From: Acidobacteriota bacterium
GTDB lineage: Bacteria > Acidobacteriota > Thermoanaerobaculia > Multivoradales > Multivoraceae
NCBI GenBank assembly: GCA_029263415.1
Contig: JAJCXN010000016.1
Coordinates: 1-52,989, forward strand
DNA: 52,989 nucleotides
Direction: 5' to 3'
Position numbers and translations under genes: made by a program. Of the stretch, positions 6,150 to 38,383 are shown piece after piece. Each line of letters opens with the position of its first letter. Position 1 is the stretch's first letter. The notes beneath the pieces are model-generated. The model ran no database searches. It was given only the letters and a program-made list of their open reading frames with translations, and was not told the origin of the DNA.

Positions 6150-7055
6150 CTAGGACGATCTGAGCGTCGACATGAGGCTGTCTTCCATCAACTTCAGCTC
6201 ATCGATTCCTGAAACGACGATTTCCGGATCGACCTCAAACATCTCACTCGGACCTTTGCCTTCATAGTCGATGTTGGCCAGCACATGCTTGACGCAATTG
6301 AGGCGTGCCAACCTCTTGGTGTCGGATCGCACAACGGTCCAAGGTGCAATCGTTCGATTGGTCTCGGACAGCATCTGGAACTTCTTCACGGTGTACTGGT
6401 CCCACAACTCTTGGGCGCGCTCGTCCACCGGCGATGTCTTGTACTGCTTCAAGAGGTCGGTCTTGCGTGACACAAAGCGGCTTTGCTGTTCCTTCTTCGA
6501 CACTGAAAAGTAGAACTTGAAGAGCTTGATGCCATCCTTCACCAGCATCTGCTCGAACAGCGGCACGTCCTTAATGAATCGTTTGTTCTCCTCGTCTGTA
6601 CAGAAGCCCATGACCGGTTCGACCATGGCCCGGTTGTACCAGCTGCGATCGAAGAACACGATCTCGCCGGCCGCGGGAAGGTGAGCGATGTAGCGCTGGA
6701 AGAACCACTGTGTGCGTTCTCTATCGCTCGGTTTCTCAAGTGCTACGACCCGCGCCCCACGGGGATTCAAGCGTTCGGTAAATCGCTTGATGGTGCCTCC
6801 CTTACCTGCTGCATCTCGACCTTCGAACAACAGCACCATTCGCGAGCCGTTCTGGCGCACTTGGGACTGCATCTTTGCCAGCTCGATCTGGAGGTCGTGC
6901 AGCTGTTGCTCGTAGTCAAGAGTGGCCGATTTGACCCAGACTTGGCGGCGGCCTTTGCCTTTCGTCTTGCCAGCACTCTTGCGAGCCCTATGTTCCTTGA
7001 GCTTGGGCCGCTTGGCCGTTTCTGCAGACTGCTTCGAAGTCTTCACACTGGTCAC
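6150..7055 (-). CDS. Polyphosphate kinase 2 family protein (copy A)
   Basis: PPK2 uses inorganic polyphosphate to phosphorylate nucleotides (or the reverse). Walker A is EGRDAAGKGG (about residues 78-87) and the Walker B/lid region is EIVFFDRSWYNRA (about 131-143, Asp136), both diagnostic of PPK2. At 301 residues it has a one-domain (class I-like) length. The first 45 residues are highly basic (KRPKLKEHRARKSAGKTKGKGRRQ), which could bind polyphosphate. The start is GTG 7055. The gene lies 35 bases downstream of a paralogue in the same orientation, implying a two-gene operon. Whether it favours ADP, GDP or AMP cannot be read from sequence alone. Confidence 0.92.
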   Translation of the reverse strand: MTSVKTSKQSAETAKRPKLKEHRARKSAGKTKGKGRRQVWVKSATLDYEQQLHDLQIELAKMQSQVRQNGSRMVLLFEGRDAAGKGGTIKRFTERLNPRGARVVALEKPSDRERTQWFFQRYIAHLPAAGEIVFFDRSWYNRAMVEPVMGFCTDEENKRFIKDVPLFEQMLVKDGIKLFKFYFSVSKKEQQSRFVSRKTDLLKQYKTSPVDERAQELWDQYTVKKFQMLSETNRTIAPWTVVRSDTKRLARLNCVKHVLANIDYEGKGPSEMFEVDPEIVVSGIDELKLMEDSLMSTLRSS

Positions 7056-7090
7056 TTCTGCACTGTCATGTTCGTGACTCCGAGGCGGGC

Positions 7091-8062
7091 TCAGCTGGTA
7101 AATTTTCCATACTTGCGCTTTTGCTTCTTCATTAGTTCGAGCTCGACATCACCTGGAATGACCACCTCCGGATCTGGCGAGAAATCCAGCGACCGACTCC
7201 GTCCGGTGTACTTGATCTGACGAAGGATCAGTTTGATGGTCTCGAGGCGAGCCCTGTGTTTGTTGTCTGAGCGGATCACGAACCAAGGGGTCTCAGGGGT
7301 ATGGGTCTTCTTGAGCAGCTGATACTTCATCTTGGTGAATTCGTCCCACAGCTCTTGCGCTTGCAGATCCACCTCACTCAGTTTCCACTGGCGCAATGGA
7401 TCATTCTTGCGCCGCTCAAAGCGACGTTCTTGCTCATTCTTCGAGACCGAGAAATAGAGCTTGATCAAAGAGGTCTTGCCGTCGGAAATGATGCGGTCCT
7501 CGTATCCCACGACTTGCTTCATGAAGCGTTTGTACTGCGAGGGTGTACAGAAGCCCATCGCCGGCTCAACCATTGCTCGGTTGTACCAGCTGCGGTCGAA
7601 GAGAACGATCTCGCCAGCGTGCGGAAACTGTTCAATGTAACGCTTCATGTGGAGTTCGGTGCGCTGCTCATCGGTCGGCTTGCCGAGCGCGACCACACGG
7701 TAGTGCTTCTCGTTCATGTAGCGCGTCACGCGTCGGATGGTGCCGCCCTTGCCTGACGCATCTCGACCATCGAAAAGGACGATCGCCTTCTTCTTAGTAC
7801 GCTCATTGTGCTGCTGAAGCTTGATCAACTCCGCCTGAAAGGGCTTAAGGCTCGCGGACTCGAAGTACTTGCCAAGCGCTGCCTCAACGAGTTCTTTTCG
7901 CTCCTTCTTTTTGATGCCGCGTCGTGCGGTATTGATCTGCTCAAGCAGCGTCGCTGTCTCATCGCTCTGTTCCAGCCGCTCGACCACAGCCCGGATTCGC
8001 GACGAGGCGCCTTTCGCCTTGCCTTCTCCAGCTTGGTTCAAAACTGCTTCATTGGCACTCAA
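7091..8062 (-). CDS. Polyphosphate kinase 2 family protein (copy B)
   Basis: Paralogue of the downstream PPK2 gene, with the same diagnostic motifs: DGRDASGKGGTI (Walker A, about residue 98 onward) and EIVLFDRSWYNRA (Asp about 156). It carries an extra helical N-terminal segment (RIRAVVERLEQSDETATLLEQINTA...). I prefer TTG 8062, which follows GAGG at good spacing; an in-frame GTG at 8137 would add 25 poorly charged residues without a clear ribosome site. The pair probably arose by duplication and has diverged considerably outside the motifs, so the two may differ in nucleotide preference. Confidence 0.88.
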   Translation of the reverse strand: MSANEAVLNQAGEGKAKGASSRIRAVVERLEQSDETATLLEQINTARRGIKKKERKELVEAALGKYFESASLKPFQAELIKLQQHNERTKKKAIVLFDGRDASGKGGTIRRVTRYMNEKHYRVVALGKPTDEQRTELHMKRYIEQFPHAGEIVLFDRSWYNRAMVEPAMGFCTPSQYKRFMKQVVGYEDRIISDGKTSLIKLYFSVSKNEQERRFERRKNDPLRQWKLSEVDLQAQELWDEFTKMKYQLLKKTHTPETPWFVIRSDNKHRARLETIKLILRQIKYTGRSRSLDFSPDPEVVIPGDVELELMKKQKRKYGKFTS

Positions 8063-8137
8063 TGTACGGACCTCACAGATCGAACGTAGGGATACGGGAA
8101 CGCTGATGACGATACTTAGCGGGCGCTCGGCGAGCAC

Positions 8138-27621: not shown

Positions 27622-28670
27622 CAGTTGCCTCCCTTGACCTGCGGTGGTTGGGTACCGAGATTCAGCAGCGGCAGAATGCTGCGCGCGTCATCGTCAACGA
27701 TGACCTTGTTCTCAATCTTTGGCATGACCTCTTGCATGGTCTCGATATAGAGCCTGCGACGGGTGACCTCCGGAGCCTTGCTGTACTCCGCTAGCAAAGC
27801 AGTGAAACGGGCAACATCACCCTCGGCTTCGTTGATCCTCTTCAGACGGTAACCGTCAGCCTCACGAATGCGCTGATCCTTCTCACCCTCGGCCAACGGA
27901 ATCACCTTGTTGTAGTCGCGCCGAGCTTCGTTGATCAACTTCTCTTTCTCTTGTTGTGCCTGGTTGACCTCGTTGAACGACTCTTGAACTGGTCCCGGAG
28001 GGTTGATGTTCTTGAGCTGCACTTGGTCAATACTGATGCCCATGGCGTACTTCGAGGTCAGTTCCTGCATCTTGGTCAGCGCCTCGGCCTCGATTTCTTG
28101 ACGGCCAATGGTGATGACCTCGTCAACCGTGCGATCGCCGACCACCTCGCGCATCACGGATTCTGAAACGTGACGCAGAGTCATGCTTGGATCGCGCACC
28201 TCGAACAGGAACTTGACCGGTTCGGCGACGCGATACTGAATCACCCACTCGACCAGTGCGGCGTTCAGGTCACCTGTAACCATTTGGGTTTCCTGGCGAC
28301 CACTAGTTGTGCGTGAGCCCTGAAAGGGGTCGGTGGCACCGGGTGTGGTGAAACCGAACTCCTGTTTCAGCTGGCGCTTCACCGGCACAATGGTCTGCCG
28401 ATCGATGCCCAAAGGCAGCTTCAAGTGCAGCCCTGGCGGCACTTCCTTCGCGTACTTGCCAAAGCGCTGAATGACTGCAACCGAGTCACTAGGAACTGTG
28501 TAGAAAGCGGACCACAGAGCGAGCACGCCCGCGACCGCAAGAGCAATGAAGATGAAGGTGTTCGGAGAGCCGCCCTCTGCGCCTCTACGCTTCATCCATT
28601 CGGGGATATTCAAGTCTTCTATGTCGAAGCTCGGGGGCTTGCGCCCGCCGCCGTCGTTCTCAGGTGCCAT
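27621..28670 (-). CDS. hflK: HflK, SPFH-domain modulator of FtsH
   Basis: A 349-residue partner of HflC. It has the typical glycine/proline-rich cytosolic head (ENDGGGRKPPSFDIEDL), a single helix (FIFIALAVAGVLALWSAFYTV), then the SPFH domain (DSVAVIQRFGKYAKEVPPGLHLKLP) and the long helix with IDQVQLKNINPPGPVQESFNEVN, a block highly conserved in HflK. It is the first gene of the hflK-hflC operon; the promoter should lie in 28671-28998. Confidence 0.96.
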   Translation of the reverse strand: MAPENDGGGRKPPSFDIEDLNIPEWMKRRGAEGGSPNTFIFIALAVAGVLALWSAFYTVPSDSVAVIQRFGKYAKEVPPGLHLKLPLGIDRQTIVPVKRQLKQEFGFTTPGATDPFQGSRTTSGRQETQMVTGDLNAALVEWVIQYRVAEPVKFLFEVRDPSMTLRHVSESVMREVVGDRTVDEVITIGRQEIEAEALTKMQELTSKYAMGISIDQVQLKNINPPGPVQESFNEVNQAQQEKEKLINEARRDYNKVIPLAEGEKDQRIREADGYRLKRINEAEGDVARFTALLAEYSKAPEVTRRRLYIETMQEVMPKIENKVIVDDDARSILPLLNLGTQPPQVKGGN

Positions 28671-28998
28671 ACGATTCCTTTCGGGGGGAGATGCTCTTAC
28701 GGGTCACTGCCCGTTCAACGGAGCACCGTTGGTTCGGTAGATCTACGATAGACCTTATGTCAGATCGGGGACAACTGCCCACCATACGTCCGAGGCTCGG
28801 AAGCAATTCGCTTGCTCACAGAAGTCGGGCACGCATCCTGAGAGCGAGGCTTTCCGGAGCTGTGTCGGCAAACCCTTGGACACTTATGGCGACCACTCCT
28901 CAGTGGTCCTCGACTCGAAGCCATCACCGAAGCACCGGGATAAGGTCTTGGTTAGGAAGATCTGGTCTCGCTGAAGAGGACCGCGGCCGGCCAGTTGG
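28671..28998. promoter_or_regulatory. Upstream region of hflK
   Basis: 328 bp between hflK and the 3' end of the PLP-enzyme gene, both on the minus strand. It must contain the hflK promoter. I see no gene and no clear terminator for the upstream operon. Confidence 0.45.
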
Positions 28999-30354
28999 CT
29001 AAGCCTGCTGTCCTTTCATCTCGGCCACTTTCTTTAGCGCCTGTTCCACATCCGCTTCCGTGTTGGTGACCGCCGGGGTCAAGCGAGCCAAGGTTGGGTT
29101 GTAGGGCGTGTTGCTGCCGATCACACCCTGGTCGAGCAAGTGACGGATGGTCTCGGTGTTCGAGAAACCCTCGACCTCGAAGCAAGCGAGACCGCTCTGC
29201 AAGCTCTCATCCAACGGCGTATGCAGCGTGACGTGCGGCATCTTGTCGAGCTCTTGGACCATGTGTCGGGTGAACTCATGGATGCGATCCGCGATGCGCT
29301 GGCGACCGATCTGCTGATGCATCTCAAACGCTTTGGGTAACGCCCACCGATTTTCAAAGCTGTGAAACCCACCGGGGGTAATCCGCCATGCCATGGGTAC
29401 GTCGTCGGGGGTGCCGCCATAAAGAAACGCGTCTTGTACTCCAGACTCGAAGGCCGTGATCGTCGGCTGCACCAGTTCCCACGCGTTGTCGTTGCCCCAG
29501 GCGAGACCGGTGCCCCGCGGTCCCCAAATCCACTTGTGGCAGCCGGCCATGAAGGCATCGCAGCCGAGATCGGCGATCTCGAAATTCTCGACCCCGAAGC
29601 CGTGCACACCATCGATGAACAAACGAGCAGGTTGGGCCCGTCTCTGGTTGGCAACCGCCAAAGCGTCCGCGATCGCCCGCACCGGCAGCTTGGCGCCACT
29701 CGAGGAATGAACCCAGGTCAAAGCAACCACCTTGGTATTGGGTTCGAGCGCCTTGATCACACGATCAACGATGTCCTTGGTTGAGGTGTTGCGCCCCGTT
29801 TCATAGAGCGGGATCCGTCGATAACTCGCTCCGGTGCGCAAGCCCGCTAGGCGCAAGGCCTCATAGGTGGCGTTGTGATCGTGAGTCGAGCTCAAGATGT
29901 CGTCGTCAGCCGACAGCTGTAACCCGCCGTAGATCACACCGATACTCATGGTGGTGCTGTCGGTGAGTGCCACATCCTCTGGCCGAGCTCCTAAGAACGC
30001 GGCGCAGGCTTCACGGGTCGCGGCGTGGGCACTGCGATAGTGCTCGCGGAGATAGAGCGCTGGGTTCTCATTCATCGCCCGAGAGATTCGATCGATCTCG
30101 TCTTGCACCGGTTTCGGGTGAGACGCCAGTAGCAAGCTGACCATGTAGACGTAGTCGCGGGTCAACGGAAACAGGTCCCCAATCTGCTCCCAGGAGGCGC
30201 TCGCGAGATCGAGGGTCGAGAGATCGGCAGTGTCGCTCGTGCCTTCAGCGGCCGAAGGCTGTCCGCAACCGGACAGCGCGACTGCCAGCGTGCTCGCTCC
30301 GGTCCCTGCAAGGAAGGATCGGCGATTGAAGCCGGGGTTTGAATGGGCCGTCAT
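28999..30354 (-). CDS. Tat-exported lipoprotein, class V aminotransferase fold
   Basis: A 451-residue PLP enzyme of the class V (NifS/isopenicillin-N epimerase/kynureninase-like) group. The PLP lysine is Lys274 in AGCHKWIWGPRGTG and the ring-binding Asp is Asp248 in FIDGVHG. Unusually, it begins with a twin-arginine signal (RRSFLAGTGASTLAVALSGC), so it should be folded with PLP in the cytoplasm, exported by Tat and lipidated at Cys30. The chemistry (epimerase, desulfurase or lyase) is not determinable. It lies 53 bases after the uncharacterised 400-residue protein gene, on the same strand. Confidence 0.88.
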   Translation of the reverse strand: MTAHSNPGFNRRSFLAGTGASTLAVALSGCGQPSAAEGTSDTADLSTLDLASASWEQIGDLFPLTRDYVYMVSLLLASHPKPVQDEIDRISRAMNENPALYLREHYRSAHAATREACAAFLGARPEDVALTDSTTMSIGVIYGGLQLSADDDILSSTHDHNATYEALRLAGLRTGASYRRIPLYETGRNTSTKDIVDRVIKALEPNTKVVALTWVHSSSGAKLPVRAIADALAVANQRRAQPARLFIDGVHGFGVENFEIADLGCDAFMAGCHKWIWGPRGTGLAWGNDNAWELVQPTITAFESGVQDAFLYGGTPDDVPMAWRITPGGFHSFENRWALPKAFEMHQQIGRQRIADRIHEFTRHMVQELDKMPHVTLHTPLDESLQSGLACFEVEGFSNTETIRHLLDQGVIGSNTPYNPTLARLTPAVTNTEADVEQALKKVAEMKGQQA

Positions 30355-30407
30355 GAATGCCTCCGAATTTGTGGGTATACCTCAGCATACCCCTCTGCCG
30401 CCACCGC

Positions 30408-31610
30408 CTAGTTGAAGCCGTCGATCGGCGGAGCAAGCTTGCCTGACAGCAAGAGCTTTCGCTCCTGCTCAGTGAATGGTTGCGCCAGCAAGCCGGGCGT
30501 CTCCTGGCGCGACCGGAACAAAGCAAATATGAACCGCATGCGATCCTCCAACTTCTTCCAGTTGCGAGCACCAGAGTTCGCACCAGTCGACATCGAGCCG
30601 CCCCATCGCTCAATGAGCTCGGCCAGCTGCGGCAACACCACGGGCTCTAGATCGGGCGGAAACATGGTGCCATCGGGGTTGGGCGGCACGTCCTCGCTCA
30701 ACGGCAAAGTCATTGTGTGCAACTTGATCGACATCATGAGCTTGGTCCCTAGCACTTCAGCCAATCGTTCCACTTCAGGCAGAAGGGAGCAGAAAGCACG
30801 ATCGAATTGCTGGAGCAGCCACCCCAGAACCGGCACTTTGAGTAGCAGCCTAGTCAACCACCAGTATCGCAGTTTGAGCAGGCCTTCCTTCACCGGCGCA
30901 TCGAGCGCCGAGGCAATCGGTCCTTGCAATCGCTGTTGCTCGTGAAGCCCGGCCTGGAGGTTAGCGAGGCACACCAGCTGCGCCCGCTCAACTTGTCCCC
31001 GCGTGTCCATGGCAAGGAAGTAGTTACGAATCGCGTCTTCGAAGATCGCGATGCTCTCCGGTTCGCCTTCGAGCTTCTGCTCACGGATGAACTGCTCAAG
31101 CGCCTCTCCTTGAAGGATCTCTCCAGCATCAAACTTGGCGATCATGTTGGCGTAGACCGGCGCTAGTTCAGCAAAGACGATGCCGTTCCCCTCCGCCACA
31201 TGCCCACTAATCCTGCTGAGTTCATTCTCGAAGATGCCCATTAGGGTGTCGTTCTCCATGAAACGAACAAGACCCAACCTGCGTAGCCACGAGTGTTTGC
31301 CGACGCGGTCCAGAGCCTCGCGGAAAGCGTGATCTGCATTGTAGGCATCGCGGATCTCCGCCGGCAGTTCCTGGTTGCGCATGGTGCTGCCGGCCGTCCT
31401 CGAAGCCCACGTCCCGTACGATGCCCAACTTCCTTCCGAATTCCCTTGCTCACCAGTGAGGTGCGCGCACATGCGCACACCGAGGTCGTGGTAGGCCTGA
31501 GTGATCCAGAGGTTGCGCACTATTCGGTCTGGCATCTCGATGATGGTGGCTACATCGCCCAATTCGATTGGGATCTGAGACGGTGCCCCGGCACCTGTTT
31601 GTTCGGTCAT
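30408..31610 (-). CDS. Conserved protein of unknown function (TWASRTAG motif)
   Basis: A 400-residue, largely helical protein. Its most distinctive stretch is SWASYGTWASRTAGSTMRNQ (about 60-80), a pattern I associate with an uncharacterised bacterial family. The middle has FAELAPVYANMIAKFDAGEIL; one hydrophobic helix pair (LLKVPVLGWLLQQFDRAFCSLLP) may touch membrane. The C-terminus ends with PFTEQERKLLLSGKLAPPID. There is no metal or nucleotide motif. ATG 31610 overlaps the stop of the lycopene-cyclase-like gene by one base (TGATG), so the two are translated as a unit. Confidence 0.75.
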   Translation of the reverse strand: MTEQTGAGAPSQIPIELGDVATIIEMPDRIVRNLWITQAYHDLGVRMCAHLTGEQGNSEGSWASYGTWASRTAGSTMRNQELPAEIRDAYNADHAFREALDRVGKHSWLRRLGLVRFMENDTLMGIFENELSRISGHVAEGNGIVFAELAPVYANMIAKFDAGEILQGEALEQFIREQKLEGEPESIAIFEDAIRNYFLAMDTRGQVERAQLVCLANLQAGLHEQQRLQGPIASALDAPVKEGLLKLRYWWLTRLLLKVPVLGWLLQQFDRAFCSLLPEVERLAEVLGTKLMMSIKLHTMTLPLSEDVPPNPDGTMFPPDLEPVVLPQLAELIERWGGSMSTGANSGARNWKKLEDRMRFIFALFRSRQETPGLLAQPFTEQERKLLLSGKLAPPIDGFN

Positions 31611-32596
31611 CAAGCGTCTTTGCCGGTCGCTGCAGGCACGCCAAAGAGCAGTTGCCCAACCGGAATCTTCCACAAGAAATAGAGCCTGAAGCACTCATAG
31701 GAAACGACGGCACCCCAAGACGCCACCAGCCAAAGCAGGATGGCCTCCACCGGTAGGTTGCCCCAGGGTCCAACGTACATCCCAGTCATCAGTTCAGGTT
31801 TGTACTTCCACCAACCATAAGGAACGCCAAGCGTGGCTTCCCACATGATGCTGACTAGCACCAGCACTGAGAACGAAAGCGCGAAGGCACGCCAGTTGAT
31901 TCGCGCTTGAACGCCACGGAAAAACAGGAGGGTGGGCAGTACGGCCAGCACGACGAGAAAGATCAAATAGCCAGGGATCCCATCCGGAGCAATAGCATCG
32001 TGGTTCTTCTTCCAATAGAAGCCCAGCGCAACAACCGCGGCCCCAACCAGCAGCGCTCGCAGATCCAGACGAAACAGCGGATGAGGCTTTGCTTCCGTGT
32101 CGTGAGGTGGGGAGTAGAGCTTCAACCAGTCATTCGACGTGAAGACATACATCAGCAGCATGAACAGGCCACCCAGAAGGTAGAAACCAAATTCCTCGAT
32201 TGGGAGATAGTCACCCACCCACTGAAACTCGGCCCAATGGAAAGCGGGCAGTCGAACACCAATAGTGGCGTCAGGATTCGGGAAGTGGAAGAAACCAAAG
32301 CCAAAGAAGAAGTCGAGCACTGCTCCTAAGAGGAAGATAACTGCCGTAGAACACCACACCGCGTTCCAGCACACGGAGTGCCGCACGTGCTTGTAGTGCC
32401 AACCCAAGAGGTAGACACAAGGCAAGACAAACAGAGTCAGGCTCCAGGTGTAGCCATGAGGCGTCGGGTCAAGGGCCGAGATCACCAGTTCGCCCGAATC
32501 CTCGATGCGCCAGATCGTGAGCACAGCCGGCACCACTAAGGCGATCAAGAAACCGATGACGGTTCCATGGCCTTCCGACTTATCAGAATCAGACAT
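31610..32596 (-). CDS. Lycopene-cyclase-like (CrtYcd-type) membrane protein
   Basis: A 328-residue protein with about eight helices. Two related segments fit the duplicated CrtYc/CrtYd lycopene cyclase pattern: TWSLTLFVLPCVYLLGW (50-66) followed by YLPIEEFGFYLLGGLF (130-145), and later GVPYGWWKYKPE (257-268) followed by NLPVEAILLWLVASWG (280-295). The PxEE motif is complete in the first half; the second has PVEA. True cyclases make beta- or epsilon-rings on lycopene; no crtB or crtI is visible, so another isoprenoid or lipid substrate is possible. ATG 32596 has GGGAGG upstream. It follows the nucleotide-cyclase gene by 31 bases. Confidence 0.75.
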   Translation of the reverse strand: MSDSDKSEGHGTVIGFLIALVVPAVLTIWRIEDSGELVISALDPTPHGYTWSLTLFVLPCVYLLGWHYKHVRHSVCWNAVWCSTAVIFLLGAVLDFFFGFGFFHFPNPDATIGVRLPAFHWAEFQWVGDYLPIEEFGFYLLGGLFMLLMYVFTSNDWLKLYSPPHDTEAKPHPLFRLDLRALLVGAAVVALGFYWKKNHDAIAPDGIPGYLIFLVVLAVLPTLLFFRGVQARINWRAFALSFSVLVLVSIMWEATLGVPYGWWKYKPELMTGMYVGPWGNLPVEAILLWLVASWGAVVSYECFRLYFLWKIPVGQLLFGVPAATGKDA

Positions 32597-32627
32597 GACG
32601 TTCCTCCCTTTTCTCGTTTCAGTCTCT

Positions 32628-34985
32628 CTAGACACTAGGACCTAGTGGCAACGACCACAAGTCCCTCGGTTCGCTCCGCCCGCGCACCCGCACCCCGCGA
32701 TGCTGCGCGAAGGGCAAGTGCTGATGCCGACCCTTACTCCAGGTCTCAGCATCCACCACCACACTGGCCGACAATTCGCGGGTCATACTTTGCAGTCGTG
32801 CGGCCAGATTGGTGGTGTTGCCGATCGCGCTCCAAATGTCACGATCGACCGCACGAATATTGCCGACGAAGGCTGCGCCGGTCGCGACACCCACTCCAAC
32901 CTGGAGGGTGACTCCAGGTTCGAGGTCGAGTTCGGGCATTTCTCCAACAATGGCCAGTGCACAGCTGATCGCTGCTTTCTCTTTGTGCTCAAGTGCCACG
33001 GGAGCACCGAAGACCACCATCATGCCGTCGCCGTTGAACTCGACCACCGCTCCGCCAGCCTTCGAGACTTGATCGGAGACCATGCCGGTGTACTCGTTCA
33101 CGGTCGAGAAGATCTCCGACGCGCCACGACCCTCGGAGTATTGGGTGTAGCCGCGAATGTCAACAAACAGGACCGTGACATCACGCTCGCCGGGTTCGAG
33201 GTCGGCGCCCTTCTCGATCTGCGCTGCGATTGCGCCGGGGACATATCGCTTCAGCGCGGCGTGCATCGTGCGCGCTTCCTCGAGAACCTGTTCACGACCG
33301 AACCGCTCGAGCTCGGTAGCGAGGTTGGCACCGACGGCGCTCAGCAAGGCAAGATCGGTAGGGGTGTAGACGTCACCCGACTGCTTCTCGCCCATTGCGA
33401 GCAGCGCTTGCCCGTGGCCGCCACGCGCGACCGGCACCAGAATGTGCGCCTCTAAGGTGTCTAGAGCTGCGCGATCGGCCGCTTCTAGTTGGTCGCCGCT
33501 TTGCGCCAACCAGGCTTGCACCCGCACCGGTCCGCCATCGAGGAGGTCTGAGATCGGCGAGCGACAACTGAGAGCTGGAGGAATCGCTGCCCCGCGGGCG
33601 GCCAGCATCCGGAAGTCTTCTCCATCTCGCAAGTAGATGGCCAGGACCCGGGGCCTAAACAAGCGTTCGAGATCGTCGGCGACTTGGCTAAGCAGCGCCT
33701 GCGGATCGGTAGCTTGGGATAGCGATGAAACCAGTTCGCCCATACCGAGCTCGACCATGTGTCGCTCTGCAAAAAACACCTTGTCGATCTTAGGGCGCAG
33801 TCGGCGCCAGGTAGGCGCAATCGCTAGAGCAGCACCCACTGCCACCAACGCTTGGCCTGGCGCTTCACCCAGCCCGATGGTTTGCCCGAGCGCCGCACCC
33901 GCCCGCGGTAGCAAGACAAAACCAACCACAGCAGCCACAGCAGCCACAAGGTTAAGAGTCGCGGCGGCACCGATCAGCCGATCGATGTCTAGGAAATCAT
34001 CCAGCAATATCGCCGCCATCACGGTGACGGGAAAGATCGCCATCGATGCTGCAATCAGTACGCTGAAGTAGACGATCTTCAACTCAACATTCAAAGCGAT
34101 TGCAGCCCAAGCAATCAAAGCAGGAACCGTGGCCGCGTAGACTCCAAAGGCAACCCAACGTAGCTGGCGACGCCCTGCCAGCGAGCTTCGGCGGTAGTTG
34201 CGCGTGAAGATCACGATGATCACAGCGATCAGCGCCAGCGTCGAGGGCCCAGCCCATCGGCTCGCAAACTCTACGTCGAGCGGAATTCCAATCGTGGAAC
34301 TCATGGTGAGCGGGCCCCGAATCGCGAACAACCACGGCCAAACTAGATGCCACCGCGAGGACAGTCGTGCTTCGTCAGGGAGGTGCAAGAAGGCAAGGAT
34401 CGTCAGCGGCGTCCATAGAAGACCTGCCGCCGAGAGGACGCACCAGCTGGCAATGGTCAGCGCAGGCAAGCCCGGATAGAACGTGCTCACCTGCAGGGCG
34501 CCAGCCAGCAAGGAGGCCGCCAGAAACCGGACGCCTGAGGTGGGAGGCCCACGCAGCAACAGAACAATGGCGACCAGAAATAGGATCGGCGATGCGATCA
34601 AGAACGGCCAATAGATCGGCTGACTGCGCACCGGAACAACTAGCTCTTGACGCGTACCGGCTCGCTCGATCACAACTCGAGCTTCACGATTCGATCGATC
34701 AGCCTCCATCAGCGCGAGATACTGGAACTCCGCTGCGCCAACACCGGTAAGCGAGCTATCGCCGAACTGAATCAGTCGATCGCCAATCACCAGCCCGGTT
34801 GCGTCGGCGTCGATCTCGCGCCAAATACCGGCTAACGTTGGATAGTCGTCATCGGTCGCTGCAGCGGTCACCCAACCAGGCGACCGATTCACGCTGTTGA
34901 CCCGCGCCACGCTCAGAACGAAGCTGGCCGCCCACAACAGCCCAACGGCAACAACGGCCGCTGTGATTTGATGTCGTCTCGCCAT
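32628..34985 (-). CDS. Class III nucleotide cyclase with PDZ-like, membrane and GAF domains
   Basis: A 785-residue sensor enzyme. Order: one N-terminal helix, an external PDZ-like domain (TGLVIGDRLIQFGDSSLTGV, about 60-125), some eight helices (about 125-370), a GAF-like cytosolic domain (about 400-560), and a class III cyclase catalytic domain. Metal aspartates are Asp609 in FVDIRGYTQYSE and Asp653 in EFNGDGMMVVFGAP; the transition-state Asn and Arg are in TTNLAARL (726, 730). The substrate-selecting Lys is Glu649 and the Asp is Asn723, so ATP versus GTP specificity cannot be called. It heads the leftward operon with the lycopene-cyclase-like gene. Confidence 0.92.
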   Translation of the reverse strand: MARRHQITAAVVAVGLLWAASFVLSVARVNSVNRSPGWVTAAATDDDYPTLAGIWREIDADATGLVIGDRLIQFGDSSLTGVGAAEFQYLALMEADRSNREARVVIERAGTRQELVVPVRSQPIYWPFLIASPILFLVAIVLLLRGPPTSGVRFLAASLLAGALQVSTFYPGLPALTIASWCVLSAAGLLWTPLTILAFLHLPDEARLSSRWHLVWPWLFAIRGPLTMSSTIGIPLDVEFASRWAGPSTLALIAVIIVIFTRNYRRSSLAGRRQLRWVAFGVYAATVPALIAWAAIALNVELKIVYFSVLIAASMAIFPVTVMAAILLDDFLDIDRLIGAAATLNLVAAVAAVVGFVLLPRAGAALGQTIGLGEAPGQALVAVGAALAIAPTWRRLRPKIDKVFFAERHMVELGMGELVSSLSQATDPQALLSQVADDLERLFRPRVLAIYLRDGEDFRMLAARGAAIPPALSCRSPISDLLDGGPVRVQAWLAQSGDQLEAADRAALDTLEAHILVPVARGGHGQALLAMGEKQSGDVYTPTDLALLSAVGANLATELERFGREQVLEEARTMHAALKRYVPGAIAAQIEKGADLEPGERDVTVLFVDIRGYTQYSEGRGASEIFSTVNEYTGMVSDQVSKAGGAVVEFNGDGMMVVFGAPVALEHKEKAAISCALAIVGEMPELDLEPGVTLQVGVGVATGAAFVGNIRAVDRDIWSAIGNTTNLAARLQSMTRELSASVVVDAETWSKGRHQHLPFAQHRGVRVRGRSEPRDLWSLPLGPSV

Positions 34986-35096
34986 CAGTTCCAGAACTTC
35001 TTCGCAGAGTGAAAGCCCGCACCCGCGCGGCAGCTATTCGTGTATCTTCAGCACACTACCGGCAATTATTTGGATTCAGGGTCAAAGGTATCAACA
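34986..35096. promoter_or_regulatory. Short divergent promoter region
   Basis: Only 111 bp separate the divergent nucleotide-cyclase and CruF-like genes, so their promoters must overlap or adjoin. I cannot pick a confident -35/-10 pair by eye. If the CruF-like protein starts at GTG 35040 the region shrinks to 54 bp. Confidence 0.5.
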
Positions 35097-36083
35097 ATGG
35101 ACTTCCCACCGCTGTTCGTTTTCACCACTGTTTCGGGCATCACTTTCGGTGCGATCTATCTCTGGAAGGCCACTAAGCTAGGGCGCCTGAGCGCCCTCGT
35201 GCTCTTAGTGGCGATGGTCTACGGCTTAGCGATCGAGATCCTCGACCTGCGCATGACCCATGAGTACTTCTACGCCCACCTGCCCCTCATGGTCGGCAAG
35301 TTCCCCAACTGGGTTCCGATCTGCATCCCGCTCACCTGGGGCGCCATCGTGTTCACCACCATGCACACCAGCAACCAGCTGCCACTCCGTTGGTTTGAGA
35401 AACCCGTTCTTGACGGGCTATTGGCCTTGTTCCTCGACCTGGCGATTGACCCGGTGTCGGCCTCCAGCTTGGTCGTCAACAAGCTCATGCAACCGTGTTC
35501 GAGCGGAAACTTCGAGGCAGGCGCCGCCAACGGTGCAGGCGCTTGGGTGTGGTGCGTTGCTCCTGAACAAGGCGCCAAGTATTTCGGCATACCGATGGCC
35601 AACTTCTTCGGTTGGTTCTGCGTGGTCGCCGCGTTCTCGTTCAGCTTCCGCTTCGTCATTTACCGTTTCAAGCTTGCCGAACGGTCTTGGCCTTCGCAGA
35701 TCGGTTTCCTGCTTGGCGCATCAGTCCTTGCGACTATTCTGATGGCACTGCCCCAGCTCGCGTTCGATCGCTTTGCACGTTCTGGATTGTTGCCCTGGAT
35801 GATCATGGGCACCTTGATCCTCGCGTCGATCGCGTACTTGGCACGCGCCCTGCGCAGGTCGGTGTTACCCAGCGGGCCACGGGTCACGGGACTCATGCTG
35901 TTACCCGCGTTCACCTACGCCGTCGCGATCACCACATCTTGGCGGCGCGGTCAGCTAGGCGAGACGCCCTTGCTCTTCTGGGCGTTGCTGGTCGTAGCCG
36001 TGGTTGGCATGTCGTTGTTCAGCGCGCCGTCTATCCATCGTCGGATGCATCCGGGATTGGGTGGTGGTTCGGGTTCAGACTGA
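35097..36083 (+). CDS. CruF-like (DUF422) membrane protein
   Basis: A 328-residue protein with about eight helices. The DUF422/CruF signature is clear: LFLDLAIDPVSAS (112-123, acidic Asp114/Asp118), then AWVW (149-152), then KYFGIPMANFFGWFCV (161-176). CruF enzymes hydrate the psi-end of carotenoids, and relatives include bisanhydrobacterioruberin hydratase. This fold is related to CrtYcd cyclases, so it and the 328-residue protein at 31610-32596 may be distant relatives. ATG 35097 follows AAAGG; GTG 35040 is an alternative. It is divergent from the nucleotide cyclase. No other carotenoid gene is in the window. Confidence 0.82.
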   Translation: MDFPPLFVFTTVSGITFGAIYLWKATKLGRLSALVLLVAMVYGLAIEILDLRMTHEYFYAHLPLMVGKFPNWVPICIPLTWGAIVFTTMHTSNQLPLRWFEKPVLDGLLALFLDLAIDPVSASSLVVNKLMQPCSSGNFEAGAANGAGAWVWCVAPEQGAKYFGIPMANFFGWFCVVAAFSFSFRFVIYRFKLAERSWPSQIGFLLGASVLATILMALPQLAFDRFARSGLLPWMIMGTLILASIAYLARALRRSVLPSGPRVTGLMLLPAFTYAVAITTSWRRGQLGETPLLFWALLVVAVVGMSLFSAPSIHRRMHPGLGGGSGSD

Positions 36084-36466
36084 GATCAACCTAGTCCCGC
36101 TAGAGGCACGTTCGAGACAGGCCCAGTCCACTCCCACCGCTCGAGTGGATGCACCCTCTCGAACGAGATCTGCGGGAGCCTGAGTCACGGTGTGAGCACC
36201 ACCGTTCGAGAGTCAACTACCATTAGCAGTGGCCACATCACCAAGAGCCTAGCGTGACCCGCATCACGCTGCTGACTCGCTGTGCATGGACCAACCTGCT
36301 GGAGGCCGAGCTAGGCTCCGACTCGATCAACTGTTCGTATGCGAAGCTACACCGCGATCGGCGGGAATGGCTTTGCTGTCGCGCAACCAACGACCCCGCG
36401 ACGGTGCGGGCCACCAAGGTCTCAAACGACCTCGATCTCTTGTTAAGCGGGAAGAGTGCGACACAG
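36084..36466. other. Gap before the glycan locus
   Basis: 383 bp. The GT2 frame is open from GTG 36254, but residues encoded before ATG 36467 (cysteine- and arginine-rich) do not resemble a glycosyltransferase N-terminus, so I treat this as non-coding and the likely promoter region of the glycan locus. No hairpin or repeat of note. Confidence 0.45.
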
Positions 36467-37459
36467 ATGAGAATCTCTACGACAGGGAATTCACTCGCTC
36501 CAGTCGGAGTCACTGTCGTGGTCGTTGCACACAACGAAGAGTCGAGGATCAGTGACTGCATCGGCTCGCTCGCGCAACAGATTGCGAAGGGCGTAAAAGT
36601 CGAACTCATCCTGATCGACGACGGCTCCACCGACAGGACGGTCGAACTCGCCTACGCCGCGGCGCCTGGCCTAACGGTCATCAGTAATCCATCGCAATCA
36701 ATCAGCTCCAATCGCAACTGTGGACTGCGAGCAGCCTCGCACCCATACGTCGCCTTTATTGACGCCGATTGTGCAGCTCCAACCCACTGGCTGGCGACAC
36801 TAGCGAGAGGAATGTGTGAGCTCAGCAGTCTTGACGGTGAGCCGGTGGCGGCCGTGGGCGGAGCGAATGTCCCGCCCGCCGGTGAGACCCCCTTCTACGA
36901 TGCCTTAGCGCTGATGTTGAACACTCGACTCGGCTCCCGCGGATCCGTTCAGGGCATGGTGTTCGACCAGGCTCGGCAAGTGGCACATCTCCCGGGCCTC
37001 AACGTCCTCTACAACAAGGAAGCACTCGAGAAGGTCGGTGGATGGGACGAGCGTTTCGCCTTGATCGGTGAAGACGAGGACCTATCGCGGCGCTTGGCGC
37101 TAGCCGGATTCAGTCTGTTCTTTGTGCCAGAAGCCGTTGTCGTCCACCGACAACGGTCCAATTTTCGAGCCTGGGCAAAGAACATGTTCACCTACGGCAA
37201 GGGTCGGATGTGGTTGATCCGACATCACCCCACGGCCTTCGAATCTGGGCTTCTGATCCCTCCCCTCTTGCCACTGCTGCTGTGGGCCTACTTGCCTGTG
37301 ATTGCTGTGATCAGCCTCGGACTGGCGTGGCGCTCAAACCGCCTAGACCTATGGCCGCGCCTAGCTCTACTGTACGCAACAACCCACGTCAGCTACGGCC
37401 TAGGACAATGGGCCGGACTCTTCAGTGTGCAAGACGGAGTCCAACGCAATTCAGCCTAG
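36467..37459 (+). CDS. Family 2 glycosyltransferase, membrane-associated
   Basis: A 330-residue GT-A enzyme. It begins with VGVTVVVVAHNEESRISDCI, has the nucleotide-sugar Asp in LILIDDGSTDRT, the metal-binding DxD as FIDADCAAP, the acceptor-side GEDEDLSRRLA and a QRSNFRAW segment like the QxxRW motif. Two C-terminal helices (LLPLLLWAYLPVIAVISLGLA and after) anchor it to the inner membrane. ATG 36467 is preferred. The donor sugar is unknown. It converges with the FkbM gene, overlapping its 3' end by 9 bases. Confidence 0.88.
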   Translation: MRISTTGNSLAPVGVTVVVVAHNEESRISDCIGSLAQQIAKGVKVELILIDDGSTDRTVELAYAAAPGLTVISNPSQSISSNRNCGLRAASHPYVAFIDADCAAPTHWLATLARGMCELSSLDGEPVAAVGGANVPPAGETPFYDALALMLNTRLGSRGSVQGMVFDQARQVAHLPGLNVLYNKEALEKVGGWDERFALIGEDEDLSRRLALAGFSLFFVPEAVVVHRQRSNFRAWAKNMFTYGKGRMWLIRHHPTAFESGLLIPPLLPLLLWAYLPVIAVISLGLAWRSNRLDLWPRLALLYATTHVSYGLGQWAGLFSVQDGVQRNSA

Positions 37460-38383
37460 ACAAGCGTCGATCGGTAGTGGAGTGTTCGAGGCACGACGGG
37501 CATAGAGAGTGCAAGGCAGACTTCGCACCACATCACCATCGGCGGACCCAGACGAGTCGAGCACCGACACCTCGGAAAAGCCCCGTGTCTTGAGCTCCTG
37601 CCGAAGTCGCGGGATCTCAGTAGTGAGATGTGGCGAGACCTCCATCACCAGTTGACGAATCCCGGACCACTGTTCTTCTCTAAGACTCTCCAAGACAAAC
37701 AGCTCGCTGCCTTCAACATCGATCTTCAGCAGATCAATCGTCTCGATGCCTCTCTCATCGAGCACTTCGCTCAAGGGTCTGAGACGACAGCGAAACCGGC
37801 GCGCTTCTCCGAGTTGGCTTCTGATCTTGGCGTTCACGAGATGACGTCGAAATGGGAAGGCCAGCAGCATGCCGAAGAACAGCCACTTGTTTCGACGCCA
37901 AAAGTCACCCATGGTCAGGGCACTTGCGATCAGGCGGCTCTCTTGCCTTTTTGCATCAGGAACAGCCGTCGAATTGCCAGGGGCGGCCGGATACAACACG
38001 AGTTCTGTTTCTACTTGCTTCAGGGCAATGCCCTCGTTGATCAGATCAACCTGATGATCTTCGATCAACGCCCCGCCGATATTGGCCTCGAGCGCTTCAA
38101 AGATTGGGGGAAGCGGCTCCAGGCATACCACTCGCAATCTCTTCCGTCCCAAGAGGACAAACATCGTGAACAGACCAATGTTGGCTCCCACATCAACGAT
38201 GCAGTCGCCGTCCCGAATCTCGATCCCCTCCCGCGTGTACGTGAGTTGCTCGAAGATCTCCCGGTAGATGTAGATCACCTCTGATCGCGACTTCGCAAGA
38301 AGATGTACCTCGAGACCATTGGGCAATGTCATCGTTGCGAGAGCCTCAGAGTCAGACCTCACATCGTGGCCCTCACGACTCAT
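37451..38383 (-). CDS. FkbM-family methyltransferase
   Basis: A 310-residue SAM-dependent methyltransferase. Motif I is CIVDVGANIGLFTMFVLLG, the acidic SAM-ribose residue is in VCLEPLPPIFEALEANI, and the FkbM hallmark IDLLKIDVEGSELFVLESL follows. An insertion with WRRNKWLFFGMLLAFPFRRH (about 165-185) is hydrophobic and may contact membrane. These enzymes often O-methylate sugars of surface glycans, consistent with the glycosyltransferases around it. ATG 38383 overlaps the preceding methyltransferase gene by 11 bases. Confidence 0.9.
   Translation of the reverse strand: MSREGHDVRSDSEALATMTLPNGLEVHLLAKSRSEVIYIYREIFEQLTYTREGIEIRDGDCIVDVGANIGLFTMFVLLGRKRLRVVCLEPLPPIFEALEANIGGALIEDHQVDLINEGIALKQVETELVLYPAAPGNSTAVPDAKRQESRLIASALTMGDFWRRNKWLFFGMLLAFPFRRHLVNAKIRSQLGEARRFRCRLRPLSEVLDERGIETIDLLKIDVEGSELFVLESLREEQWSGIRQLVMEVSPHLTTEIPRLRQELKTRGFSEVSVLDSSGSADGDVVRSLPCTLYARRASNTPLPIDACLG

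Follow-up and report, generated by a model that had tools for sequence, protein, structure and literature searches.

A distant lycopene-cyclase relative beside class III nucleotide cyclase genes in an acidobacterial genome and elsewhere

A membrane protein related to the CrtYcd lycopene cyclases, here termed CRT, is encoded next to a class III nucleotide cyclase, and close to a second membrane protein of the DUF422/CruF family, on a 52,989-nucleotide stretch of an Acidobacteriota genome (contig JAJCXN010000016.1, hereafter the window). The linkage between CRT and nucleotide cyclases recurs in other genomes and is unlikely to be a chance adjacency, and there is moderate support for the view that CRT and DUF422 function as one unit with the cyclase. 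A pathway to carotenoids, the substrates of the known members of both membrane families, was not detected in the genome. A tentative reading is favoured here, in which an isoprenoid-binding or isoprenoid-modifying membrane module would be coupled to a signalling enzyme. The genes and domains concerned are as follows.

31610-32596, minus strand: CRT, a CrtYcd-like integral membrane protein of 328 residues (open reading frame listing, Pfam/NCBIfam scan)
32628-34985, minus strand: nucleotide cyclase of 785 residues, rich in transmembrane stretches, with a GAF and a class III domain (Pfam)
32670-33185, minus strand: catalytic domain of the class III cyclase, with DIRGY, EFNGDG and NLAAR motifs (sequence reading)
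33303-33707, minus strand: GAF domain within the cyclase protein (Pfam)
34986-35096, no strand: divergent region of 111 bases between the cyclase and DUF422 genes
35097-36083, plus strand: DUF422/CruF-like integral membrane protein of 328 residues (PF04240)

The cyclase and CRT genes are separated by 31 bases, and the DUF422 gene diverges from the cyclase across 111 bases. A sequence-only reading of this locus had given the gene positions, the 328-residue size of both membrane proteins, the 31-base gap and a divergence across about 110 bp, all of which are borne out by the open reading frame coordinates. The PIEE motif and the LPVE segment of CRT are also present, as is the TGATG that couples CRT to a 400-residue protein. 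On the whole, the observations of that reading were partly confirmed and its interpretation was partly supported.

CRT loci were gathered with two peptide patterns, so that CRT proteins without these patterns were missed, and many of the CRT contigs are short. The genome scan yielded 70 CRT loci from at least 10 phyla, or 71 loci with the window. They hold 73 CRT genes, of which 70 are full-length (in 68 loci) and the rest are fragments in L082, L083 and L085; two CRT genes each are carried by L065 and L080, and a six-frame search showed that L017 and L027 also hold CRT. The distribution is patchy, CRT being present in 12 of 396 Acidobacteriota genomes and in 7 of 147 relatives of the window organism, all within its order (72 genomes). 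Genome-wide searches for crtI, PF00494, a flavin adenine dinucleotide (FAD) oxidoreductase and DUF422 covered 37 of about 70 CRT genomes, and cyclases were counted in 30.

A class III cyclase adjoins CRT in seven of the 73 genes (window, L045, L047, L049, L054, L070 and L080). The chance expectation for this adjacency is about 0.18 over 72 genes, a value that assumes random gene order and was scaled to 72 genes from the mean of 30 genomes, all seven positives included. In the CRT tree, the cyclase-linked genes occupy about four positions, namely the window; L045 with L047; L049 with L054 and L070; and L080. With the window excluded, three further tree positions against 0.18 expected correspond to a probability of about 0.0009. 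The tree labels L016 as kinase-linked; an ADC-like gene intervenes there, so it was not counted as adjacent.

The triad of CRT, class III cyclase and DUF422 is found in the window and in L049 and L070, which belong to two Thermoanaerobaculia genomes. In a third acidobacterial genome, G171, the triad is split over two contigs, represented by L054 (same contig as L196) and L208. The contig of L054 ends in CRT and the start of a cyclase, and L208 opens with the remainder of a cyclase of this kind, 34 bases ahead of DUF422. The linkage of the three genes noticed in the window is thus conserved at L049, at L070 and in the split L054 and L208. In L051, from genome G169, DUF422 comes straight after CRT with no cyclase between them. 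A profile of the window-type DUF422 protein matches 7 of the 37 CRT genomes, 5 of them above 130 bits. In these five the best gene sits at a CRT or cyclase locus, beside a CRT-linked cyclase in three genomes, the other two being G169 and G171.

The signalling proteins that adjoin CRT are of several kinds. The cyclase of the window has a transmembrane-GAF-cyclase architecture, that of L045 (and, by homology, of L047) is kinase-AAA-GAF-cyclase, and those of L070 and L080 are cyclase-cyclase-AAA, as are, by profile or homology, those of L049 and of L054 with L208. No hydrophobic stretch was found in the partner cyclases of L049, L054, L070 and L080 and one in those of L045 and L047; the membrane domain of the cyclase, which the sequence-only reading had proposed as a possible point of input, therefore cannot be the general contact point. 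Four other CRT genes are followed on the same strand by a histidine-kinase, SpoIIE or HD-GYP protein. For example, the neighbour is a kinase-AAA-GAF-histidine kinase in L024 (in L029 by homology) and a kinase-AAA-GAF-PAS-SpoIIE protein in L023. In L195 (8776-9810), from a one-contig genome of Acidobacteriota, a DUF4118-HD-GYP protein is encoded 36 bases downstream of a divergent CRT. Such CRT-signalling pairs are the closest-packed of all CRT neighbours. Further, the gene that diverges from CRT in L196 (2381-3673, equal to L054 1921-3213), in the genome that also carries the CRT-cyclase-DUF422 set, codes for a protein that combines a cyclic-nucleotide-binding domain (85.7 bits, cut-off 27.5) with a protein kinase domain. 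No second case of a cyclic-nucleotide-binding protein beside CRT was found in the 71 loci; a weaker relative of the domain lies three genes from CRT in L030. Since CRT is kept beside changing outputs, it may act as a sensor or ligand module.

The window cyclase passes the class III cut-off, PF00211 matching residues 601-772 with 63.5 bits (cut-off 21.9), and GAF_3 matches residues 427-561 with 34 bits (cut-off 27). Six or seven hydrophobic stretches are predicted, depending on the threshold. Of the PDZ-membrane-GAF class III cyclase that had been proposed from the letters, the GAF, catalytic and hydrophobic parts hold; the PDZ domain does not, no match to it being obtained at E ≤ 1 with the whole protein or with residues 31-125 alone. 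The metal-binding Asp pair and the Asn/Arg motif are retained, as read from DIRGY, NGDG and NLAAR, whose residues presumably have their usual roles in class III cyclases. The EFNGD motif carries Glu at a position where Lys is usual in adenylate cyclases. Because Glu replaces this Lys, the product may be cyclic GMP (cGMP), which is a fair guess from the sequence.

By sequence comparison, the window CRT is a distant relative of PF18916. It scores 20.1 bits with this family (23.7 in the genome search, which covered 22 CRT genomes) against a cut-off of 27, and 21.6 bits with TIGR03462 against a cut-off of 39.4; 49 of 59 CRT homologs reach PF18916 at E ≤ 1. Eight long helices are predicted. D95, E134, E135, E253 and E284 are invariant in all 59 aligned homologs. 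The first PIEE is complete and the second repeat reads LPVEA, so that PxEE is not present in both; position 285 is A in 46, E in 9 and S in 4 of the 59 sequences. The DUF422 protein passes the cut-off of PF04240 (38.7 bits, cut-off 25) and stays far under that of the CruF equivalog TIGR03460 (12.7 bits, cut-off 154.7). Its E47, D114 and D118 are invariant in 10 of 10 aligned sequences, and the motifs D-x3-[DE]-P, W-x-W and [IV]P-x2-N are common to it and two CruF proteins of carotenoid (crt) gene clusters.

A carotenoid-cyclase fold had at first been ascribed to both membrane proteins. This was not upheld at the level of sequence, as the two family profiles show no similarity (hhalign probability 0.3%), and a homology of CRT to DUF422, or of either to solved structures, was sought by sequence and not found; the predicted models do match the same solved structure. 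The AlphaFold2 model of CRT is of high confidence (pLDDT 92.4, pTM 0.90) and that of DUF422 of moderate confidence (pLDDT 71.4, pTM 0.77). Foldseek gave nothing at E<0.9 for the two models against solved structures. After re-alignment to the Foldseek candidates, the mycobacterial Insig homolog MvINS (PDB 4xu4) was the top structure for CRT (Z 7.5, 154 residues, 3.9 Å), the next unrelated structure being at Z 4.8, and also for DUF422 (Z 9.0, 136 of 189 residues, 3.0 Å; next 5.0), values of 7.5 and 9.0 that in helical membrane proteins can come from a common helix arrangement. The INSIG family is absent from the family matches at E ≤ 1 of the 59 CRT and 10 DUF422 sequences, which comprise 24 families for the CRT set and 7 for the DUF422 set. 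An Insig-like fold common to the two proteins is suggestive only, a lead offered by the models and not a result.

The window genome (6.9 Mb, 99.2% complete) offers little ground for pigment synthesis. Its best crtI (phytoene desaturase) match reaches 78 bits against a cut-off of 238. A single protein of the squalene/phytoene synthase family PF00494 is present, whose best model is the squalene synthase TIGR01559 (74.7 bits, below the cut-off of 286.75). Its gene clusters with genes for diphosphomevalonate decarboxylase, type 2 isopentenyl diphosphate isomerase, HpnA and HpnH, all over cut-off, and with mevalonate-kinase-like and hydroxymethylglutaryl-CoA-reductase-like genes just under cut-off. 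In the genome no dedicated crtB was seen and no crtI was over cut-off; crtE was not searched for genome-wide. As crtI over cut-off and a dedicated crtB are both missing, in-house pigment synthesis is unlikely, as the sequence-only reading had supposed from the window, and the idea that the usual carotenoid genes lie at some other site of the genome was rejected on the crtI and PF00494 searches. From its gene content, the organism is expected to make squalene and hopanoids, with no detectable carotenoid pathway. Two further DUF422 loci are present in the genome, neither in a recognisable carotenoid cluster. A 548-residue protein of this genome (L102, 8918-10564, C55) matches PF04240 in two stretches with 234.9 bits.

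Among the 37 CRT genomes searched, crtI is over cut-off in 13 and in none of the remaining 24, which include the window genome, and PF00494 is present in 31. The cultured carriers Methylobacter luteus (L048) and Edaphobacter aggregans (L044) belong to the genomes without crtI over cut-off. Two crtI-positive genomes contain, besides CRT, a separate crt cluster with adjacent CruF-type and CrtYcd-type genes, namely L178 in G161 (CRT in L038) and L180 in G153 (CRT in L023). The PxEE motifs are both PIEE in L180, and PLEE and PIED in the CrtYc and CrtYd of L178, so that in these proteins the second acid differs only as E or D. The CrtYcd-type protein of L180 is itself under the PF18916 cut-off (24.1) and the CRT proteins of L023 and L051 are above it, so the score alone cannot separate the two kinds. 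In carotenoid operons, the CrtYcd/CruF pair takes lycopene as substrate and acts at its two open (psi) ends. In the excerpt of PMC11855829, the CruF gene of Nonlabens spongiae is described beside that of a lycopene cyclase, both enzymes acting on the lycopene ends. CruF and CrtYcd side by side are nothing unusual for carotenoid genes, and the pair itself is not odd; the oddity at the locus is the cyclase, together with the absent upstream pathway. Given that this adjacency is ordinary in carotenoid operons, the window pair looks like a non-carotenoid offshoot of it.

Other genes also recur near CRT. At 11 loci CRT has a gene for a FAD oxidoreductase of about 735 residues (amine-oxidase clan) next to it or close by, and the 11 genomes of these loci are the only ones of the 37 to contain the enzyme; the window genome, G024 and G032 were without it, and it was discarded as a partner in the window. 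ADC-like proteins are encoded near CRT in L016-L019, L023, L026 and L047 (genes at 8629-9738 in L016 and 16812-17780 in L047, whose products are not among the rows of the CRT tree). Those scanned reached 28.0, 28.7 and 29.4 bits, just under the PF06314 cut-off of 29.8. In L024 and L029, CRT itself carries a fused ADC-like part (16.0 bits). G150 has a second ADC-FAD-CRT operon, with a PF00494 gene about 1.2 kb away. In the tree, the window CRT clusters on a long branch with rows of the FAD/ADC branch (97/87). The ADC-FAD-CRT module, which looks like an undescribed small-molecule pathway, was seen in L024 (4536-6554) and L029 (6072-8123), where CRT and ADC are fused, and in L017-L019, L023, L026, L047 and L154, in Myxococcales, Gemmatimonadota, Anaerolineae, proteobacteria and Verrucomicrobia. 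A cluster of TonB-dependent receptors, two members of which were Pfam-checked and whose background frequency was uncounted, has members no more than a few genes away from CRT in L016, L020, L022, L036, L043, L048, L049, L051, L070 and L084, and by BLAST a TonB-dependent receptor gene follows DUF422 in L208. Uptake of a hydrophobic ligand is possible at such loci. A member of a DUF6989 (PF22497) cluster lies beside or near CRT in L036, L041 and L080 (the L041 protein was Pfam-checked). In two Gemmatimonadota loci, L021 (1004-2140) and L022 (7821-9023), CRT is followed by a protein of about 380-400 residues, one of which was checked and gave no Pfam family over cut-off.

In the favoured reading, CRT and DUF422 would be non-carotenoid relatives of the CrtYcd/CruF pair. 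They would bind some membrane isoprenoid that is not a carotenoid, and might have kept the ability to cyclise or hydrate it. Squalene, or a lipid made from it, would be the nearest ligand candidate, given the mevalonate, squalene-synthase-like and hopanoid genes of the genome. Occupancy of CRT, or its product, would then control the adjoining cyclase, so that the state of the lipid is read out as cyclic nucleotide. The role of CRT as input, the identity of the lipid, the choice between enzyme and receptor, any catalysis and the direction of the signal are inferred parts of this scheme. A bolder form, in which an Insig-like family derived from CrtYcd/CruF serves as lipid-sensing input in several phyla with interchangeable outputs, and reports the state of the squalene/hopanoid branch of mevalonate metabolism as cyclic nucleotide in the window, is distinctly unlikely.

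Several findings weigh against coupling of a lipid-sensing module to the cyclase. CRT occurs in only 7 of the 72 genomes of the order, and in 0 of 23 other genomes searched in the family of the window organism. For the majority of CRT genes, among them a clade of 34 (97/91), no neighbour of the cyclase or c1-cluster type was detected, a statement that refers to the cyclase profile and the c1 protein cluster, other neighbours being unannotated; in that clade CRT accordingly works without a cyclase. The backbone of the tree is weak, and the labelled rows need three changes where the well-supported branches force only two. The cyclase gene comes first in the window and CRT comes first in the other linked cases, and no fusion of CRT to a signalling domain was found in the loci collected. 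The FAD oxidoreductase and ADC-like partners point to metabolism, not to sensing. The CRT proteins of L023 and L051 exceed the PF18916 cut-off (27.9 and 28.3 against 27), so that the distance from lycopene cyclases is uneven across CRT. In G024, a PF18916 protein that passes the cut-off (50.4 bits) is encoded at a site apart from CRT, with no crt cluster seen. The match to Insig is under the safe level for helical proteins. The G024 protein, of about 252 residues, is encoded among metal-transport-like genes (L179, 9435-10193, C16).

These points bear on three other explanations. CRT and DUF422 may be enzymes of an uncharacterised terpenoid pathway, which the signalling protein merely regulates or neighbours, with no direct coupling. 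Such a purely metabolic role would account for the FAD oxidoreductase in 11 loci, for the ADC-like neighbours and the ADC-CRT fusions, for the position of the G150 operon near a PF00494 gene and for the retention of the acidic residues of CRT; against this, the oxidoreductase is missing from the window genome and from G024 and G032, where the recurrent partners are the cyclase and DUF422, and the tightest packing around CRT is that with signalling genes. It is rather unlikely, if with an appreciable chance of being right. A second possibility keeps the carotenoid and places its origin outside the cell: lycopene- or γ-carotene-like molecules would enter through TonB receptors, be altered by the pair and be reported by the cyclase. 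The receptor genes recorded around CRT at ten loci, and downstream of DUF422 in L208, are in line with this, as is the formation of 1′-hydroxy-γ-carotene from lycopene by CrtY and CruF (excerpt of PMC11855829). However, TonB receptors are widespread among bacteria (with their background here uncounted), the window has no receptor of that cluster, and its CRT is under the lycopene-cyclase cut-offs in a family whose second PxEE is PxEA in 46 of 59 members, so that imported carotenoids are very unlikely as the ligand.

Finally, CRT and DUF422 may be a unit between which the window cyclase is an unrelated insertion. The adjacency of CRT and DUF422 in L051 without a cyclase would fit this, and so would the gene order of the window, unlike that of the other triads, and the family members searched without CRT. 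Conversely, the window genome has just two class III cyclase matches, which puts the chance that any one gene adjoins such a cyclase at about 0.0006, and at three further tree positions CRT adjoins cyclases of a different architecture; an accident of this kind is highly doubtful.

Compared with described systems, CRT resembles the CrtYcd lycopene cyclase (PF18916/TIGR03462) in being a membrane protein with PIEE and a second PxE, an acidic residue preceding each. It differs in that the window CRT is under both cut-offs and lies outside a crt cluster in a genome without crtI over cut-off, and in two other CRT genomes a CrtYcd is encoded separately, in a crt cluster. Similarly, the DUF422 protein is like the carotenoid 1,2-hydratase CruF (PF04240/TIGR03460) in passing PF04240 and in its motifs, and unlike it in being far under TIGR03460 and in standing beside a nucleotide cyclase with no detectable carotenoid pathway. 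Myxol-type carotenoid operons, in which cruF lies beside crtY or crtYcd, have the same two families adjacent, as in L178, L180 and Nonlabens spongiae, whereas in the window the pair is split by the cyclase gene, one gene is divergent, and crtB and crtI are missing. Insig/MvINS is the top structural match of both models, with no match in sequence and with Z scores (7.5 and 9.0) that are not decisive for helical membrane proteins. The GAF-cyclase output and the catalytic motifs are those of class III cyclases with other sensor modules, from which the window cyclase differs in that its co-encoded partner is a relative of carotenoid enzymes.

In the open-access literature, searched by titles and abstract openings, no link was described of lycopene cyclase or CruF relatives to nucleotide cyclases or Insig. 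In the excerpt of PMC9304148, adenylate cyclase appears only as a two-hybrid reagent. The components are thus known families, in a combination for which no description was found. To our knowledge, neither a class III cyclase with a co-encoded relative of carotenoid enzymes nor an isoprenoid-sensing second-messenger system in bacteria has been described.

The inputs of bacterial nucleotide cyclases are mostly unknown, and a membrane family that persists next to varying signalling partners offers a direct way towards finding one. Its recurrence in unrelated bacteria with different signalling proteins hints at undescribed sensing of membrane lipids or signalling by them. Insig is the sterol-sensor family of animals that controls mevalonate metabolism. 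If the structural match were true, it would tie carotenoid cyclases and hydratases to animal sterol sensors. Under the bolder reading, the window system would correspond, in a bacterium, to the way in which Insig governs the mevalonate pathway of animals. In practical terms, annotations as “lycopene cyclase” or “carotenoid biosynthesis protein” are unsafe where a genome is without crtB and crtI.

The remaining genes around the locus are listed below.

28999-30354, minus strand: PvdN-like enzyme dependent on pyridoxal 5′-phosphate (PLP), with a sub-threshold twin-arginine translocation (Tat) signal (Pfam/NCBIfam scan)
30408-31610, minus strand: protein of 400 residues with no family assigned, translationally coupled to CRT
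36254-37459, plus strand: GT2 glycosyltransferase, starting 170 bases past DUF422

The 400-residue protein, whose reading frame overlaps that of CRT in the TGATG, gives no match at E ≤ 1 in Pfam or NCBIfam. Its homologs are found in 3 other genomes among the 72 of the order (G026, G052 and G060), none of them beside CRT, and no homolog is present among the called genes of the CRT loci. It was rejected as a member of the system on account of where these homologs lie and is probably outside the conserved unit; the linkage suspected for this protein, known by its TWASRTAG motif, was therefore not sustained. The three homologs lie at L103 (8056-9384), L104 (8441-9628) and L105 (8895-10106), and two of them are near an ABC-permease-like gene (BLAST only).

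The Tat-exported PLP lipoprotein proposed at 28999-30354 is a PvdN-like PLP enzyme (339 bits with the PvdN equivalog, cut-off 650), as far as its family is concerned; its Tat signal falls just under cut-off. The GT2 glycosyltransferase at 36254 was considered as a CruG-like partner and rejected, its similarity to the GT2 protein of a carotenoid cluster being weak and local only. It probably belongs with the polysaccharide-like region to its right. In the divergent region between the cyclase and DUF422 genes, a weak sigma-70-like match is present on the minus strand (35094-35065); the scan of 28500-37600 gave this 1 site against 2.0 in shuffled sequences, so that it is not evidence by itself. 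Elsewhere in the window, two adjacent genes for PPK2-like polyphosphate kinases are found at 6150-8137, one of them confirmed by Pfam and the other assigned by reading.

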